In this document: in pieces, positions 11,947 to 18,060 of the stretch | Position numbering within the stretch: position 1 is the stretch's first letter | Layout: the number at the start of each line of letters is the position of its first letter | Assembly: GCA_021773135.1 (NCBI GenBank) | Contig: JAJFKP010000027.1 | Span: forward strand, 62,001-126,000 | From: Woeseiaceae bacterium | GTDB lineage: Bacteria; Pseudomonadota; Gammaproteobacteria; Steroidobacterales; Woeseiaceae | Reading direction: 5' to 3' | DNA length: 64,000 bases | Notes under the pieces: model-generated | Database searches by the model: none | The model's input: the letters and a program-made list of their open reading frames with translations, nothing else | What the model was told of the DNA's origin: nothing | Translations under genes and position numbers: made by a program

Positions 11947-13236
11947 TCAGTGTTTCACCGGGTAAGCCGGTGAAGAACTCTTGATGCCAATTATTCTGAA
12001 GATGCGTTTCGCTGCACCGGCAATCAGTCTGCCGGCGAGGCGCAGGCCTGGCATCGGATCGTCCCACGCAAAATACATCCCGTTCCTTGGTTTGAATGCC
12101 AATTTTGCGTAAGACGCCAGCACTTTTAAAACCGGCGTCCGGTCAGCATGCAGGCTCATCAGGTCGAATTTCAGGTCCAGAAAATAGATGCCGTTTTCCT
12201 GTGTTGTTCCGGAGTGTTGGACCTCCTGTTCGACTGCCACCCTGTAGCTGTTCCAGACCGTTGGCATACCACAGGCCTCATCGAAGCCGACGTTGGCAGG
12301 GAGCCGCGGATTGATTTCGATGTATTTGTAGCACGAGTCCCTGTCGTCCCAGCGAAACTCGACCCCAGCATGGCCGACGTATTCCAGCTTCTCGCCCAGC
12401 TCCCGCGTCAGTTTTTCTATTTCAGGGTTGGCGGCGGATACTGCAAAGGTGCTGCCACCGAAATGCGCCGGGTATGCGCGAAGTTTCTGTTTGACGCCGC
12501 AGTCGAGCAGTTCATGCTTCCGGCTAAAGGTACAGCTGCTGACCCACGAATAACTGTCCGGTCCGGGTATGACTTCCTGCGCGAGCAGGCTGGGAATTGC
12601 ATCCCGCCATCGGTCGTAAAAAATTCTTAGAGATTCTGCATCCAGTACAACCTCATTTTTCTTGGGGAACTGGCTGCTAGCGACAAACAGATACGGTTTA
12701 AAAATCATTGGAAAACGGAGCTGTCGTTCGAGATCTGCCGGGTCTGGCGGCAAATCCTGAATGGTCTTTGGCAGGTCAAATCCCAGCGACGCAATCAGCC
12801 GCGTCTCCTGCCGTTTGTCATTCAACGCCTGCAACACACTTCGTTTGGGAATTGCAAAACGAAACTTTCGCCGTAGCGCTTCTTCGTGGCGCGATATGAG
12901 CTCAACCAGCCGGTCGGAGTTGGTCAGAATTACGGCGCCCTGAGCGGGCATTTCATCGAGTATCTTAAGCAGGCACTTCTCGCGTTCATCGTCGGTGCCA
13001 TACAGGCGAATGGATGACTGCGGATAGCGCGAGTCCAGTGACGGGTCGGTCGCATCGTAAGCAATGGTGGTAACCGCGATTCCCCGACGCGCGAGTGCGC
13101 GTACGGCACCCAGTCCGCCGGTGCCGTGTGACAACACAATTGCAGGAACATTCCTTGTCACGTTCTTATTATTATTTTGACCGAACCCGATGATTGATCC
13201 AGGTGACCAATCATCATTGAATCGTTTATTGAACAA
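11947..13236 (-). CDS. ATP-grasp ligase-like protein
   Basis: 429 residues. The N-terminal part (about 30-130) begins AIVLSHGTGGLGAVRALARRGIAVTTI, a pre-ATP-grasp Rossmann-like fold. The ATP-grasp core runs from about 140 to 330: FPMIFKPYLF (ATP-binding lysine strand), LAQEVIPGPDSYSW, and YKYIEINPRLPAN, the ExNxR metal-binding motif. The family joins a carboxylate to an amine or thiol using ATP. The C-terminal 80 residues are basic and amphipathic. It diverges from the glycosyltransferase fusion across a 110-bp AT-rich space. Related ATP-grasp proteins occur in capsule, peptide-natural-product and carbohydrate-modification loci; the neighbours here favour a surface-sugar role. Confidence 0.78.
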   Translation of the reverse strand: MFNKRFNDDWSPGSIIGFGQNNNKNVTRNVPAIVLSHGTGGLGAVRALARRGIAVTTIAYDATDPSLDSRYPQSSIRLYGTDDEREKCLLKILDEMPAQGAVILTNSDRLVELISRHEEALRRKFRFAIPKRSVLQALNDKRQETRLIASLGFDLPKTIQDLPPDPADLERQLRFPMIFKPYLFVASSQFPKKNEVVLDAESLRIFYDRWRDAIPSLLAQEVIPGPDSYSWVSSCTFSRKHELLDCGVKQKLRAYPAHFGGSTFAVSAANPEIEKLTRELGEKLEYVGHAGVEFRWDDRDSCYKYIEINPRLPANVGFDEACGMPTVWNSYRVAVEQEVQHSGTTQENGIYFLDLKFDLMSLHADRTPVLKVLASYAKLAFKPRNGMYFAWDDPMPGLRLAGRLIAGAAKRIFRIIGIKSSSPAYPVKH

Positions 13237-13346
13237 CAGTTTACTACGGGAAACATATGTAATTTATATTAATTTCGGGAATATGTAACAAATGCGTTGA
13301 AAAGCCGCGCTAACGTTTTCAAGGTAGGCGGAGTACGGAGAGTTTC

Positions 13347-14711
13347 ATGATTTCCATAATAATAAGAACAAAAAACGAAGAACGCTGGATCGGATCCTGT
13401 CTCGAAATGATATCCAGGCAGTCGCGCCAGGACTTCGAGGTGGTGCTGGTCGATAACAACAGCACGGATAGAACCGTCGACAAGGCCCTCCAGTATGGTG
13501 CGAAGCTCGTTACGATAGATCAGTTCATGCCCGGAGAAGCGATCAATCGGGGCATCAAAGCGTCGACGGGCGACCTGATTGTGGTACTTTCTGGCCACTG
13601 CATACCCGTTGACGAACACTGGCTACAGAACCTGGTGAGTGAGCTGGACGACGAGGAGGTTGGTGGCATCTACGGCCGACAGGAGCCGCTCGCTTTTACG
13701 CCAGACCTGGACAAGCGCGATCTATTGATTTCTTTTGGCCTGGATCGTCGGGAACAATTCAAAGACAGCTTCTTCCATAACGCGAACAGCGCGTTTCGGC
13801 GAAGCATGTGGGATCGATTCCCTTTTGACGCAACCGTGACGAATATCGAAGATCGCATCTGGGCACATACCGTTCAGAGCGCGGGATTCAAAATCGTTTA
13901 CGAGCCGAGCGCCAGTGTCTATCACTATCACGGTATTCACCAGGAAGCGGACCCGGATCGCTGTGGCAGCATCATCAGAATCGTCGAGTCGATCGATCCT
14001 CCGATTACCGGCACGGCCAATAATAGAATCGAGCCCTCGCACCTGAACGTGGTCATGGTGGTTCCCGTGCGGGAGGAGGGGTTGAGGTCTCTCGACGGAA
14101 AGCAACTCTACGAATACTCGATTGAACACGCGCGGGCGTCAAAATTTGTAAAAAAGATCGTGGTTTCGACGAACCTCGATGACGTCGCCAGGAAGTCGAC
14201 CGAGGCCGGTGCCGATATCGTGCTGCGACGTTCGAATGGACAATCGAGGTTCGACGTAATTCTGGAGTTGATGATGCAGGCTTCACTACAGGCACTCGAA
14301 GACCAGGGTGTTATTCCCGACGTCATCGTTATGCTGGAGCCGACATTTCCGTTCCGCGATGCGACAATCCTCGATACCTTGATTAGCCAATTTGCTCACG
14401 GTGGTTTCGATACGGTTATCCCGGCAAGAGTGGAATACAATTCCTGCTGGATGGAGGAAGACGGTGCCTTTCGACGCATGGACGACGGCTATATTTCGCG
14501 CGAGTTCAAGACGCCGTTCTACACAGGGCTAAAAGGCCTTTGCTGTGTATGCTCGCCAGCAACCGTGCGCTCTGGCAAGCTCTTTGGTGACAATGTAGGT
14601 CTTTACAAAATGGACGACACGCTGCCGATGTTTGAGGTTCGATCTGACTCAGATGCGCAGATTGCCCAAGCGTTGCTGCAAACGAAGAACAACGTGGCGA
14701 GTGTCCATTAA
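13347..14711 (+). CDS. Fusion of GT2 glycosyltransferase and CMP-sugar synthetase-like domain
   Basis: 454 residues in two parts. Residues 1-220 are a family-2 glycosyltransferase: MISIIIRTKNEERWI, VLVDNNSTDRTVD, then SGHCIPVDEHWL where most GT2 enzymes have a DxD. Residues 230-454 resemble the acylneuraminate cytidylyltransferase (NeuA) family: LNVVMVVPVREEGLRSLDGK at the position of the nucleotide-binding loop, and VIVMLEPTFPFRDATILDTL matching the family LQPTSPLR region. The usual ARxGSK loop is degenerate (VREEGLRS), so catalytic competence is uncertain. Such a protein could activate a sugar acid with CMP and transfer it, or the two halves could be regulatory. No NeuB or NeuC homologue is nearby. 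The Gfo/Idh gene overlaps the 3-prime end by 11 nt. Confidence 0.75.
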   Translation: MISIIIRTKNEERWIGSCLEMISRQSRQDFEVVLVDNNSTDRTVDKALQYGAKLVTIDQFMPGEAINRGIKASTGDLIVVLSGHCIPVDEHWLQNLVSELDDEEVGGIYGRQEPLAFTPDLDKRDLLISFGLDRREQFKDSFFHNANSAFRRSMWDRFPFDATVTNIEDRIWAHTVQSAGFKIVYEPSASVYHYHGIHQEADPDRCGSIIRIVESIDPPITGTANNRIEPSHLNVVMVVPVREEGLRSLDGKQLYEYSIEHARASKFVKKIVVSTNLDDVARKSTEAGADIVLRRSNGQSRFDVILELMMQASLQALEDQGVIPDVIVMLEPTFPFRDATILDTLISQFAHGGFDTVIPARVEYNSCWMEEDGAFRRMDDGYISREFKTPFYTGLKGLCCVCSPATVRSGKLFGDNVGLYKMDDTLPMFEVRSDSDAQIAQALLQTKNNVASVH

Positions 14712-15696
14712 TAGTCGTTCAATCGAAACCTGCGGCGTAGGAATCGTCGGTCTCGGTCACGTCGCCACGCATCAGATAGATGCGCTGCGCCGCTTGGATG
14801 ATTTTGCACTGGTTGCCGCCTGCGATCATGATCAGGAAGCACGTGCAACGATTTCATCTTCGATCGATTCCTACGAGAACCTCGAATCTATGCTCGAGCG
14901 ACGCGATCTGGACGTGGTCATTGTCGCTACACCGAACAAGCTGCACGTCGAGCACGGCATCCTTGTTATGGAAGCCGGAAAACGGCTGGTTATTGAAAAG
15001 CCTGTCGCGGAGACGTTGGCGGAATTCGAGATTCTTGCTGACAGGAAGAAACGCCTGTCAGCGCATTGCACCGTTGCGCTGCACGCGGCGTTCGGTGTAG
15101 AAGTTGAGTGGTTTGTCACTGAACTGGCAAACGGCAGGTTCGATGAGTTGGCGTTCGATTCGTTTCATTGTCAATTCTATGATCCGTACATCCAGGATAA
15201 TCAGCTACAACCCGGCGCAAACTCGCTAGGTGGATCCTGGATCGATAGTGGCGTCAATGCATTAAGCGTCGTCTGCAGGATTCTGGATCCGGCCACGCTG
15301 GATCTGTCCAACAGCAGGATCAGTCGGCGCTCCGACCTGGATTGCCTCGAGGTCAGCGGCAGCGCGAATTTCACCGTGTCTGATCGGAAGTTGTCGGGAT
15401 TGGGAACAATAGAAACGGACTGGACCACCGGCCAAGATCGGAAAGTGACAACGCTCGGGATTGCAAGAGATTCTCGAAAACTCGTTCTGCACCATTCAAA
15501 CCAGACTGTAGCTTTGGTTGATGGCGGCAAAGAAGAAGTGATTTTCGAATGTAACAACAGCCTGCCACGGTTGACCAATCACTACATTGGCGTGTTCAAC
15601 GACCTGGCGCGTCAGATCCGATTTGATAAAGACAATCTGGATTACAGCCGTCGACTGCATGAGTTTCTATACCGAGCGGAAACGTGGCGCGAGTGA
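14701..15696 (+). CDS. Gfo/Idh/MocA family oxidoreductase
   Basis: 331 residues from a GTG at 14701 that lies inside the end of the preceding gene, implying translational coupling. The N-terminal NAD(P) fold shows CGVGIVGLGHVATHQIDAL, and the catalytic EKPVAETLAEFE segment (EKP motif) follows at about residue 100. The C-terminal sheet domain occupies the rest. The family oxidises, reduces or epimerises sugar hydroxyls, often on nucleotide sugars in surface-polysaccharide pathways. Coupling with the GT2/CMP-sugar fusion suggests it makes or modifies the sugar that protein uses. Confidence 0.82.
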   Translation: MSINSRSIETCGVGIVGLGHVATHQIDALRRLDDFALVAACDHDQEARATISSSIDSYENLESMLERRDLDVVIVATPNKLHVEHGILVMEAGKRLVIEKPVAETLAEFEILADRKKRLSAHCTVALHAAFGVEVEWFVTELANGRFDELAFDSFHCQFYDPYIQDNQLQPGANSLGGSWIDSGVNALSVVCRILDPATLDLSNSRISRRSDLDCLEVSGSANFTVSDRKLSGLGTIETDWTTGQDRKVTTLGIARDSRKLVLHHSNQTVALVDGGKEEVIFECNNSLPRLTNHYIGVFNDLARQIRFDKDNLDYSRRLHEFLYRAETWRE

Positions 15697-16119: not shown

Positions 16120-16521
16120 GTGGACAACGAAAACATTCCGACTGATCAGTTACTCGAACCCCCAAATACATTTATGTTTTCCGTCCGTGAATGTGTCAGT
16201 GCTTTTCAGCTCAACCAGTTTTCAATTGGACTAAAAAATCCACAGGAGAGGGCATTGTTTCTGGCCGACGAACGGGCGGCGATGACCGCTTATCGACTTA
16301 GCGATGTTCAAATGGAAATGATTGAGCAGCGAGATTGGACAGGCCTGATTGCCGGTGGCGGTCATGTCCTGGCGATTGTCAAGATCGCGTATTCTCTCGG
16401 CATATTGCATCATGAAGTTGGTGCCCATATGTGCGGGATGTCGTACCAGGAAATGAAAGCACAATTGCCTTGCGAATCTGATTTATTGCCTCAGGATATC
16501 GACTCCCGAGGACAACAATAG
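16120..16521 (+). CDS. ligA: Protocatechuate 4,5-dioxygenase alpha-chain-like (LigA)
   Basis: 133 residues matching the small LigA chain: NQFSIGLKNPQERALFLADERAAMTAYRL followed by MIEQRDWTGLIAGGGHVLAIVKIAYSLG, the helical layout that caps the active site of the catalytic beta chain. LigA and LigB together form type II extradiol dioxygenases that open protocatechuate or related catechols between carbons 4 and 5. The start is GTG. The stop shares one base with the ligB start, so the two are co-translated. The true ring substrate is not fixed by sequence. Confidence 0.88.
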   Translation: MDNENIPTDQLLEPPNTFMFSVRECVSAFQLNQFSIGLKNPQERALFLADERAAMTAYRLSDVQMEMIEQRDWTGLIAGGGHVLAIVKIAYSLGILHHEVGAHMCGMSYQEMKAQLPCESDLLPQDIDSRGQQ

Positions 16522-17366
16522 TGGGAGTTGTACTCGGTGGCATGGGCATTGCGCACACGCCGACGATGGGTCACGCATATGATGGTCGCGAGGGAATCGA
16601 TTTTAAGGATCGGTGGAAGCAGTGGTTCAAAGGTCTCGCTCCGGTTAAGCAATGGATTTCGGAAATCGCGCCTACTCATATTATCGTTGTCTACAATGAC
16701 CATCTGAACTACTTTGATTTTTCAACCTACCCCACGTTCGCCATTGGTATGTCTGACCATTTTCCTCAGGCAGATGAAGGTTGGGGAAAGCGTGCCTATC
16801 CCGGTATGGATGGTGACGTCGATTTCTCGGCGTCGGTCGCTGAGTCACTGGTTGCCAACGGATTCGACCTCACTTTCTGCCAGGAGCTTGAGATTGATCA
16901 CGGTATTTATTCGTGGTTACCGTGCCTGATTGACCATCCCTGGCCAGTCAAGTTTTTGCCAATAGCAGTGAACATGGTTATGCAACCCGTGCCGACGCCA
17001 GCTCGGCTGCTGGCGCTTGGGTCGGCGCTTCGAAGTAGCGTGGTTGACACGGCTGACGACAGTAGAGTGCTTATTGTGGCGACCGGCGGCATGTCACACC
17101 AGATCACCGGGCGTCGCTTTGGATTGACCAACCCTAAGTTTGATCAGTTTTTCCTGAGCAAAATTACCCATGAATGGGATGAATTAATCAGTATTCCAAT
17201 GTCACGGATCATGCAGGTTGCCGGCACCGAAGCCGGCGAGCTCGCAATGTGGTATGCCATGCGAGGTGCTTTGTCTGGCAGTGTGCGGGAAGTCTATTCA
17301 TTTCATATCCGCCCCGAAATTACCGGGTGTGGCGTTATCGCGATAGAGGAAAGCAATGACAAATAG
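16521..17366 (+). CDS. ligB: Protocatechuate 4,5-dioxygenase beta-chain-like (LigB)
   Basis: 281 residues, the catalytic chain of a class III (type II) extradiol dioxygenase. Iron-ligand residues sit at the positions known in LigB: His12 in GIAHTPTMG, His61 in YNDHLNYF, and Glu237 in GTEAGELAMW; the catalytic histidine is His193 in TGGMSHQ. GTG start coupled to ligA. An alpha/beta hydrolase gene overlaps the 3-prime end by 11 nt. The usual partners for protocatechuate meta-cleavage (ligC, ligI, ligJ, ligK) are absent, so the pathway is incomplete here or the substrate differs. Confidence 0.9.
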   Translation: MGVVLGGMGIAHTPTMGHAYDGREGIDFKDRWKQWFKGLAPVKQWISEIAPTHIIVVYNDHLNYFDFSTYPTFAIGMSDHFPQADEGWGKRAYPGMDGDVDFSASVAESLVANGFDLTFCQELEIDHGIYSWLPCLIDHPWPVKFLPIAVNMVMQPVPTPARLLALGSALRSSVVDTADDSRVLIVATGGMSHQITGRRFGLTNPKFDQFFLSKITHEWDELISIPMSRIMQVAGTEAGELAMWYAMRGALSGSVREVYSFHIRPEITGCGVIAIEESNDK

Positions 17367-18060
17367 TCATGCGCTGGTCCTGATCCCGGGCATACTCTGC
17401 AACGAAGAGGTTTGGTCTGATCAACGGGCAGCGTTGTCGGATATCGCGGTGATCCAGGTCCCTGATTTGAGAGGGAAGTCGACATTGTCGGATATGGCCG
17501 CCGCAATTCTTGACTCAGCGCCGCCTGTATTTGCTCTTGCGGGACACTCAATGGGTGGCCGTGTAGCGCTGGAAATTCTGGACCAGGCACCTGCCCGGAT
17601 TTCGAGTCTGGCACTGCTAAACACCGGTGTTCATCCCGTAGGTGAAAATGAACCTGCCCGCCGCCAGGCATCCATGGCGACCGTTGCCAAAAGCGGTCTG
17701 GACGCTTTCGTCGACCCCTGGTTGAAGGCAATCTTGCCAGACTATAGATTGCACGACGACGACATCGTAAGTGCAGTGCGCAGGATGATATTGAGTTTTT
17801 CGCCCGAGGATTTCAATAACCAGACGGAAGCCATGTTGACACGCCGCGATAGCAGTCTGTTGCTTGACGGCATTGTCTGCCCGACATTGTTATTGTGCGG
17901 CGAAGATGATGCTTATAGTCCGCCTAAGCAACATCAATTGATACAAGAGAAAATACCGAATGCGAAACTCATTGTGCTGGAACATTGCGGGCACATGTCC
18001 CCAATGGAGGCACCAGAGGAAGTCTCCGCGGCTCTACGCGACTGGCTGCTGTCGAGTTGA
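17356..18060 (+). CDS. Alpha/beta hydrolase, possibly acting on the ring-cleavage product
   Basis: 234 residues with an intact triad: nucleophile serine in AGHSMGGRVALE, acid in LLCGEDDAYSPP, and histidine in EHCGHMSPMEAP. It resembles enol-lactonase and meta-cleavage-product hydrolases in length and layout. Its start lies inside ligB (11-nt overlap), so it is made together with the dioxygenase and probably acts in the same pathway. The exact bond cleaved is not known. Confidence 0.85.
   Translation: MTNSHALVLIPGILCNEEVWSDQRAALSDIAVIQVPDLRGKSTLSDMAAAILDSAPPVFALAGHSMGGRVALEILDQAPARISSLALLNTGVHPVGENEPARRQASMATVAKSGLDAFVDPWLKAILPDYRLHDDDIVSAVRRMILSFSPEDFNNQTEAMLTRRDSSLLLDGIVCPTLLLCGEDDAYSPPKQHQLIQEKIPNAKLIVLEHCGHMSPMEAPEEVSAALRDWLLSS

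Follow-up and report, generated by a model that had tools for sequence, protein, structure and literature searches.

A glycosyltransferase family 2 protein fused to a NeuA-fold domain that lacks its nucleotide loop: a candidate transferase of CMP-activated ulosonic acids

Results

The window analysed here is a stretch of 64,000 nucleotides from a Woeseiaceae bacterium (GenBank assembly GCA_021773135.1, contig JAJFKP010000027.1, positions 62,001 to 126,000 of the forward strand), and its element of interest is a trio of genes whose central member encodes a glycosyltransferase family 2 (GT2) domain fused to a domain with the fold of NeuA, the cytidine monophosphate (CMP)-sialate synthetase. An earlier note had described an ATP-grasp ligase gene divergent from the gene of a bifunctional GT2 and CMP-sugar-synthetase-like protein, the latter coupled to a Gfo/Idh oxidoreductase gene, with no sialic or pseudaminic acid synthase nearby. 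This layout is confirmed by Table 1, both in the coordinates and in the families assigned to the three genes. The ATP-grasp and fusion genes are divergent, the fusion and Gfo/Idh frames overlap (and genes of the Gfo/Idh family are neighbours of the fusion in 50 of the 80 related loci described below), no NeuB gene lies at the locus and all three frames are intact. The listed start of the Gfo/Idh frame is TTG 14632; the GTG at 14701 is probably the start, since the beginning of the Rossmann domain fits it and the frame so opened overlaps the fusion stop codon (14709-14711). No NCBIfam model exceeded its cut-off for the ATP-grasp, fusion or Gfo/Idh proteins, and a scan of the 110-bp intergenic region found no sigma-70-like site. 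Pfam identifies a PadR regulator upstream of the trio and, downstream (window 16120-18060), the dioxygenase subunits LigA and LigB and an alpha/beta hydrolase. The LigB protein is only 38-41% identical to its homologues in the genus, which are paralogues, and synteny via LigB is uninformative. A genomic island was considered on the basis of base composition and rejected, nothing being unusual and the G+C content of the locus lying near that of its surroundings.

Table 1. Features of the ATP-grasp, fusion and Gfo/Idh locus (window coordinates).
Feature	Position	Strand	Basis and remarks
ATP-grasp ligase-like protein	11947..13236	-	PF02655 (ATP-grasp_3); 429 residues, counted from a TTG; start uncertain, as are the first ~28 residues
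Divergent intergenic region, 110 bp between listed starts	13237..13346	.	Between ATP-grasp and fusion genes
GT2 and NeuA-fold fusion protein, 454 residues	13347..14711	+	PF00535 (Glycos_transf_2) and PF02348 (CTP_transf_3), single open frame
Fusion, N-terminal GT-A/GT2 domain, ~residues 1-224	13347..14018	+	PF00535 E 3.5e-25; structural matches
Fusion, S82-G83-H84-C85, replacing the DxD metal motif	13590..13601	+	Alignment of fused members
Fusion, I167-E168-D169-R170, xED catalytic-base motif kept	13845..13856	+	76-row alignment; motif meaning from PMC7185993
Fusion, C-terminal CMP-sialate-synthetase (NeuA) fold without nucleotide loop, residues ~233-446	14043..14684	+	PF02348 E 1e-8; structural match
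Fusion, residues 240-252, where the CTP-phosphate loop is missing	14064..14102	+	Empty alignment columns: 7 in the window fusion, 8 in the relatives shown
Gfo/Idh/MocA oxidoreductase, 331 residues from probable GTG start	14701..15696	+	PF01408 (GFO_IDH_MocA) E 7.6e-22

The full fusion was found in no other genome among 99 relatives, nor in any other of 369 genomes drawn from its class; in both sets only the GT2 half was matched. Near-full-length fusions (41-42% identity) are present in 14 genomes from a different class within the phylum, and a profile scan of genome contigs yielded 167 fusion relatives, the best 80 of which have 38-52% identity. The locus counts given below rest on these best 80 of 167, a set that overlaps with the 14 genomes; its hosts include Omnitrophota, Planctomycetes, Desulfobacula, Pelagibacter, Prochlorococcus, Roseibium, Legionellaceae, Magnetococcales and others. 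Since near-full-length relatives occur in 14 genomes and 80 loci, the fusion is neither a product of chance nor an assembly artefact, and from its wide spread across bacteria it follows that the domain pair is old and has been maintained. Plasmids gave 47 records matching the fusion, none across more than 80% of the protein, and viral contigs gave no relative by single-protein scan and a single, unfused one (locus L175) by profile scan. In a tree of the fusions (L113 dropped, L125 trimmed of its first 370 residues) the window protein stands on a long branch without a well-supported home, and the nearest proteins by path are from Omnitrophota, both of context A and of no context as defined below.

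The N-terminal half of the fusion is a GT2 domain. In an alignment of 76 members, from which five of the 80 loci were dropped (L059, L113, L121, L125 and L127), PF00535 was recognized in every row, about 40 GT2 columns are invariant, the window fusion included, and so is the E168-D169 pair of the xED base. Structural matches to this half were GT2 enzymes, for example 6yv7_B (Z 21.9, root-mean-square deviation (rmsd) 2.8, 209 residues aligned). At the place of the DxD (or NxD) motif, after the fourth strand, all 81 fused proteins (the window fusion and its 80 relatives) read S-x-H, followed in 79 of them by C; by eye, the five other GT2 proteins of the genome read DAD, ADD, DGDD, DAD and NPD near that place. 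The DxD motif is required by GT2 enzymes, where it holds the metal that steadies the nucleotide diphosphate (PMC11231755), and it is usually absent from sialyltransferases (PMC7439481). The sialyltransferase families GT29, 38, 42, 52 and 80 were not among the matches listed in the fold and sequence searches, where a missing row excludes nothing.

The C-terminal half has the fold of a synthetase and lacks part of its active site. Structure prediction, which the earlier note had proposed, gave a GT-A domain followed by a NeuA-fold domain (AlphaFold model from the 76 sequences; mean pLDDT 92.5, pTM 0.77), and the best structural match of the second was 6ifd_B, the CMP-N-acetylneuraminate synthetase of Vibrio cholerae with cytidine diphosphate (Z 26.1, rmsd 2.9, 218 residues aligned). 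The model agrees with the GT2 and synthetase-like parts named in the note, but the nucleotide loop of a synthetase is missing. This N-terminal loop, which we take to be the one wrapping the phosphates of cytidine triphosphate (CTP), is missing from the alignment of the window fusion and of all 80 relatives, and the profile of the fused domain, aligned with the CMP-Pse synthetase 9ftb (E 1.6e-15), shows an eight-residue gap at this point. The loop pattern (R..S....KN type) was present in none of the 81 fused proteins, whereas 62 of the 76 separate NeuA/KdsB-like genes in the same loci carried it. By eye, the other 14 separate genes comprised nine with a KdsB-type loop, one (L078) with a loop overlooked by the pattern, two with a wrong reading-frame start and two cut at contig ends. 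The 59 separate NeuAs used for residue comparisons had been picked with a loop-requiring pattern; their 59 of 59 for loop residues arises by construction, and 62 of 76 is the fair count. R295 is kept in all 80 fused domains compared (L113 left out) and in these 59 NeuAs, and Pfam still calls PF02348 in 53 of 76 fusion members; therefore, part of the synthetase site survives. In the region that is presumably the C-terminal aspartate pair for magnesium (IDxD), the window fusion reads FEVRSDSD and the three control synthetases, which themselves vary, read IDIDT, VNLDT and LDIHT; the segment is IDID or LDIH in two of the three controls and mostly xE[VI]R in the fused domains. Judging from the missing loop, the fused domain is probably dead as a synthetase, and its Pfam name is an annotation trap, since it calls a cytidylyltransferase a domain whose CTP loop is missing.

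To describe the surroundings of the fusion, mechanically called open reading frames (ORFs) were clustered and counted within 7 kb of the fusion in the 80 loci, the cluster scored as NeuA-like (c1) also taking in KdsB-like genes. A NeuA/KdsB-like gene was present in 60 loci, Gfo/Idh in 50, Ldh_2 in 30, NeuB in 20, a 2-hydroxyacid dehydrogenase in 17, a DAHP-synthase-like gene in 16 and an AroE-like gene in 15. Because a separate NeuA/KdsB-like gene accompanies the fusion so often, synthetase activity of its own would be redundant. In a distance control with the 36 loci that have about 10 kb on both sides, matches per successive 2.5 kb fell steeply for NeuA (33, 8, 5, 5), Gfo/Idh (24, 2, 2, 1), Ldh_2 (16, 1, 0, 0) and DAHP synthase (9, 0, 0, 0), the fall for NeuB being much weaker (7, 3, 4, 3); NeuA lay within 7.5 kb in 34 of these 36 loci. 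We defined three contexts: A, with Ldh_2; B, with a DAHP-synthase-like gene and either AroE-like or Gfo/Idh; and C, with NeuB and a 2-hydroxyacid dehydrogenase. Context A comprises 30 loci (29 with Gfo/Idh, 27 with NeuA), B 14 and C 12, while 24 loci, half of them with NeuA, have none of these. The contexts track the fusion tree, with 10, 6 and 3 changes against shuffled means of 24.4, 13.1 and 11.4.

The loci of context A (for example L048 and L109) usually join NeuA and a Gfo/Idh protein of about 400 residues to Ldh_2, and none of the 30 also fits B or C. Context B (from L079:9932-13134 onward; also in L082, L090, L092, L098, L103, L120 and L127) is seen in Prochlorococcus, Pelagibacter and others as NeuA, fusion, Gfo/Idh, DAHP-synthase-like and AroE-like genes, and looks like a route to a CMP-activated acid sugar. 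Both A (Gfo/Idh and Ldh_2) and B (DAHP-synthase-like and AroE-like) point to acid-sugar routes without assigning them. A protein of about 640 residues without Pfam match (cluster c7, 16 loci, for example L053:6573-8498) occurs repeatedly next to the fusion, chiefly in context A.

Unfused relatives of the GT2 half were collected from 25 loci, namely all 12 genomes with a GT2-only match, 12 of the 47 plasmid records and the viral contig L175; most flanks spanned about 8 kb. A loop-bearing NeuA was present in all 11 loci whose GT2 reads S-x-H-C and in both with S-x-H-V. No NeuA was found in the three S-x-H-S loci (lactobacilli), the two S-x-H-A loci (Gloeothece) or the seven loci whose motif contains an acidic residue (NSDA in three, then VGDA, TQDA, THDA and DADC). 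Where NeuA was present, it lay within 50 bases of the GT2 gene or overlapped it in 10 of 13 cases, the others being 2.5, 3.3 and 8.0 kb away. These loci thus indicate that S-x-H alone is not enough, but that loss of the acidic motif and presence of NeuA go together; since the sequences are related to one another, we give no probability for this association. In the initial 13 loci NeuA had accompanied all nine S[AG]HC proteins and none of the four others, and on extension to 25 the association of S-x-H-C with NeuA held in two added loci and that of an acidic motif with its absence in five. The stricter rule that NeuA does not occur without the C was rejected on the two S-x-H-V loci, and the extension left our weighing of the readings unchanged. 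The clearest unfused case is L175:4207-6331, an environmental viral contig in which NeuB, an SAHC-type GT2 and a loop-bearing NeuA are consecutive on a stretch that also holds a tail tape-measure gene, and which is a predicted phage-borne acid-sugar set. In capsule genes of Lactobacillus plasmids (L186, L187 and L189) an S-G-H-S GT2 stands with no NeuA nearby, and the donor may differ.

The genome from which the window comes (99.67% complete, 64 contigs) has no match to the NeuB/PseI/LegI synthase family (PF03102), which 9 of 14 control genomes do match, so that the absence of a sialic or pseudaminic acid synthase noted at the locus extends to the genome. Its PF02348 matches are KdsB, the fusion and GlmU only; KdsB scores 254.7 bits with TIGR00466 (cut-off 155.2) and adjoins LpxK. 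Since no synthetase of this kind other than KdsB was found beside the fusion in the genome, CMP-Kdo (Kdo, 3-deoxy-D-manno-octulosonic acid) would be the most available donor. The window Gfo/Idh keeps its Rossmann domain (PF01408) and EKP motif, and it falls outside both well-supported clades of the partners in contexts A and B, on a very long branch of a tree whose branches are long. When 11 controls were compared, five of them fetched by similarity to the window protein, the best context-B protein gave an E-value of 1.3e-13, the best of the six own-genome controls 1.5e-12 and four of the five similarity-picked ones 1e-15 to 1e-14. The window protein is matched by context-B proteins and by other Gfo/Idh proteins about equally well. 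Among 148 other relatives, five had matches to it, mainly over the Rossmann part. The ATP-grasp protein belongs to a diverse set, with relatives at 25-30% identity in 10 of these 148 genomes; K180, Q220, E307, N309 and R311, which we take to be its catalytic-signature residues, are invariant in 15 aligned rows (14 distinct). Further relatives in this range of identity adjoin a glycosyltransferase and a deacetylase in Priestia plasmids. Others lie at L143:8868-12761 and L144:9010-12878, beside genes that by eye resemble, as we presume, the nickel-pincer cofactor genes LarB, LarC and LarE. In the 80 fusion loci no ORF matched the ATP-grasp profile. As no match to the ATP-grasp protein was found in these loci and the Gfo/Idh protein lies outside the partner clades, we regard the former, and perhaps also the latter, as local associations. 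The window fusion is an orphan copy.

Discussion

The fusion family appears to be a novel GT2 variant: widespread bacterial proteins of GT2 fold in which DxD has given way to S-x-H, nearly always S-x-H-C, and to which a loop-less NeuA-fold domain is attached. On balance, we believe that these proteins probably transfer CMP-activated ulosonic acids and that their synthetase domain is probably non-catalytic, a proposal drawn from sequence, predicted structure and gene neighbourhood. Most likely, the fusion would attach a 2-keto-3-deoxy (ulosonic) sugar acid to a surface glycan, taking it from a CMP donor supplied by an intact CMP-synthetase that is a protein of its own. The dead domain would bind the donor or serve for docking, and might pair with the true synthetase to hand over the labile CMP-sugar. 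In the window genome the donor would be CMP-Kdo. The Gfo/Idh enzyme would probably adjust the redox state of the sugar or of a precursor; the ATP-grasp enzyme, which may or may not belong to the pathway, would join a carboxylate to an amine. The theme of a CMP-activated sugar acid put forward in the earlier note is therefore retained as likely for the family, given that 60 of 80 loci have a NeuA/KdsB-like gene at most 7 kb away. Its idea that the fusion itself makes the CMP-sugar is probably wrong, as no fused protein carries the loop pattern. Likewise, its suggested joint neighbourhood search recovered NeuA/KdsB-like and Gfo/Idh companions and gave no support for the ATP-grasp enzyme, matched in none of the 80 loci, as a member of the set.

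Several observations weigh against a CMP-ulosonic-acid donor. The DxD motif has been lost independently in several families, with DxH in its place in GT27 and GT60 (PMC7185993), so that H84 might still bind a metal. Nor does the loss require a CMP donor, since the bacterial GT6 enzyme is metal-independent and uses uridine diphosphate N-acetylgalactosamine (PMC3961637). Five of the 18 unfused S-x-H loci (two of Gloeothece, three of lactobacilli) have no NeuA, and the SAHA of the Gloeothece proteins is also the reading in two of the 81 fused ones. No NeuA lies within 7 kb in 20 of the 80 fusion loci, some of them through contig ends, and NeuA neighbours could supply another sugar of the same polymer. 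The window fusion itself has no NeuA neighbour; CMP-Kdo as its donor, if a CMP donor is used, would follow only from the absence of alternatives, and orthology of its Gfo/Idh protein with the usual partners is not clearly supported by the long-branched tree.

The best surviving alternative, which we consider unlikely, is that the fusion is a conventional GT2 using a nucleoside diphosphate (NDP)-sugar, with the NeuA-fold domain as a structural or acceptor-binding addition and the neighbouring NeuA serving another residue of the same glycan. GT2 enzymes use nucleotide-diphosphate sugars and need the DxD for it (PMC11231755), but S-x-H could act like the DxH of GT27 (PMC7185993); the xED is retained, and unfused S-x-H relatives without NeuA do exist (both SAHA and all three SGHS loci). 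Yet NeuA is found at all 11 unfused loci with the motif of 79 of the 81 fused proteins and at none of the seven with an acidic one; furthermore, the phage run of NeuB, GT2 and NeuA holds no other transferase, and the fused domain is itself NeuA-like. That the window trio is an acquired remnant without pathway or present function is quite improbable. It would account for the lack of the full fusion in the 99 relatives and the 369 genomes of the class, for a genome with KdsB and neither NeuB nor NeuA, and for the atypical Gfo/Idh and ATP-grasp partners; it fits poorly with three intact frames, some 40 invariant GT2 columns shared by the window protein, a conserved ATP-grasp signature and a G+C content near that of the surroundings. 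The bifunctional enzyme of the earlier note, making and transferring its own CMP-sugar, could appeal to the remaining NeuA fold, to R295 and to the PF02348 calls, but is very improbable with the nucleotide loop absent throughout, the C-terminal segment mostly xE[VI]R and a separate NeuA/KdsB-like gene in 60 of 80 loci.

If the fusion is a CMP-ulosonic-acid transferase, a wider scenario can be drawn, which we regard as possible rather than probable. A widespread lineage of GT2 enzymes would have switched from NDP-sugars to CMP-ulosonic acids, given up DxD for S-x-H-C and captured and killed a synthetase domain, which would now dock the true synthetase and channel the unstable CMP-sugar. In hosts such as Prochlorococcus, Pelagibacter, Magnetococcales, Desulfobacula, Omnitrophota and others this module would have been reused with at least three acid-sugar routes (NeuB; DAHP-synthase-like plus AroE-like; Gfo/Idh plus Ldh_2), a phage would carry the minimal unfused version, and the window copy would draw on CMP-Kdo. 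If the proposed function is right, it would name a likely acid-sugar transferase of abundant marine and sediment bacteria and provide a sequence signature for such clusters, namely a GT2 that reads S-x-H-C and often carries a NeuA domain lacking the loop.

Comparison with known systems

In the open-licence literature searched, with subscription papers and preprints mostly outside its scope and sources available in part, we found no account of a protein that joins a GT2 and a NeuA-like domain; the earlier note had not recognized the set as a described pathway, and a counterpart was not found there either. The NeuA synthetases for CMP-N-acetylneuraminate, CMP-Pse and CMP-Kdn (6ifd, 9ftb, 9t4z and 1eyr) resemble the C-terminal fold of the fusion (Z 22-26) and share one arginine with it. 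In contrast to them, the fusion has no nucleotide loop, carries the domain behind a GT2 and, in 60 of 80 loci, stands near a separate NeuA/KdsB-like gene. SpsA, TarS, K4CP, PcManGT and WrtF (1h7l, 5tzi, 2z86, 6yv7 and 9omh) share its GT-A fold (Z about 20-22) and xED, whereas the fusion has S-x-H-C for DxD; SpsA carries a DxD-like doublet and, according to the conclusion of its authors, is not the CMP-Leg transferase (PMC7439481). The function proposed for the fusion, use of a CMP-ulosonate donor for a surface glycan, is that of the CMP-Kdo-dependent ORF7-O4 of Klebsiella (GT137), although this enzyme was modelled as GT-B-like with altered topology and is not a GT2 (PMC11231755). Also similar are clusters of Thalassovita, Sulfitobacter and Gemmobacter, in which an S-G-H-C GT2 gene is directly followed by a loop-bearing NeuA, the dehydrogenase genes being separate; there GT2 and NeuA are two genes, whereas the window holds a fusion with a loop-less domain.

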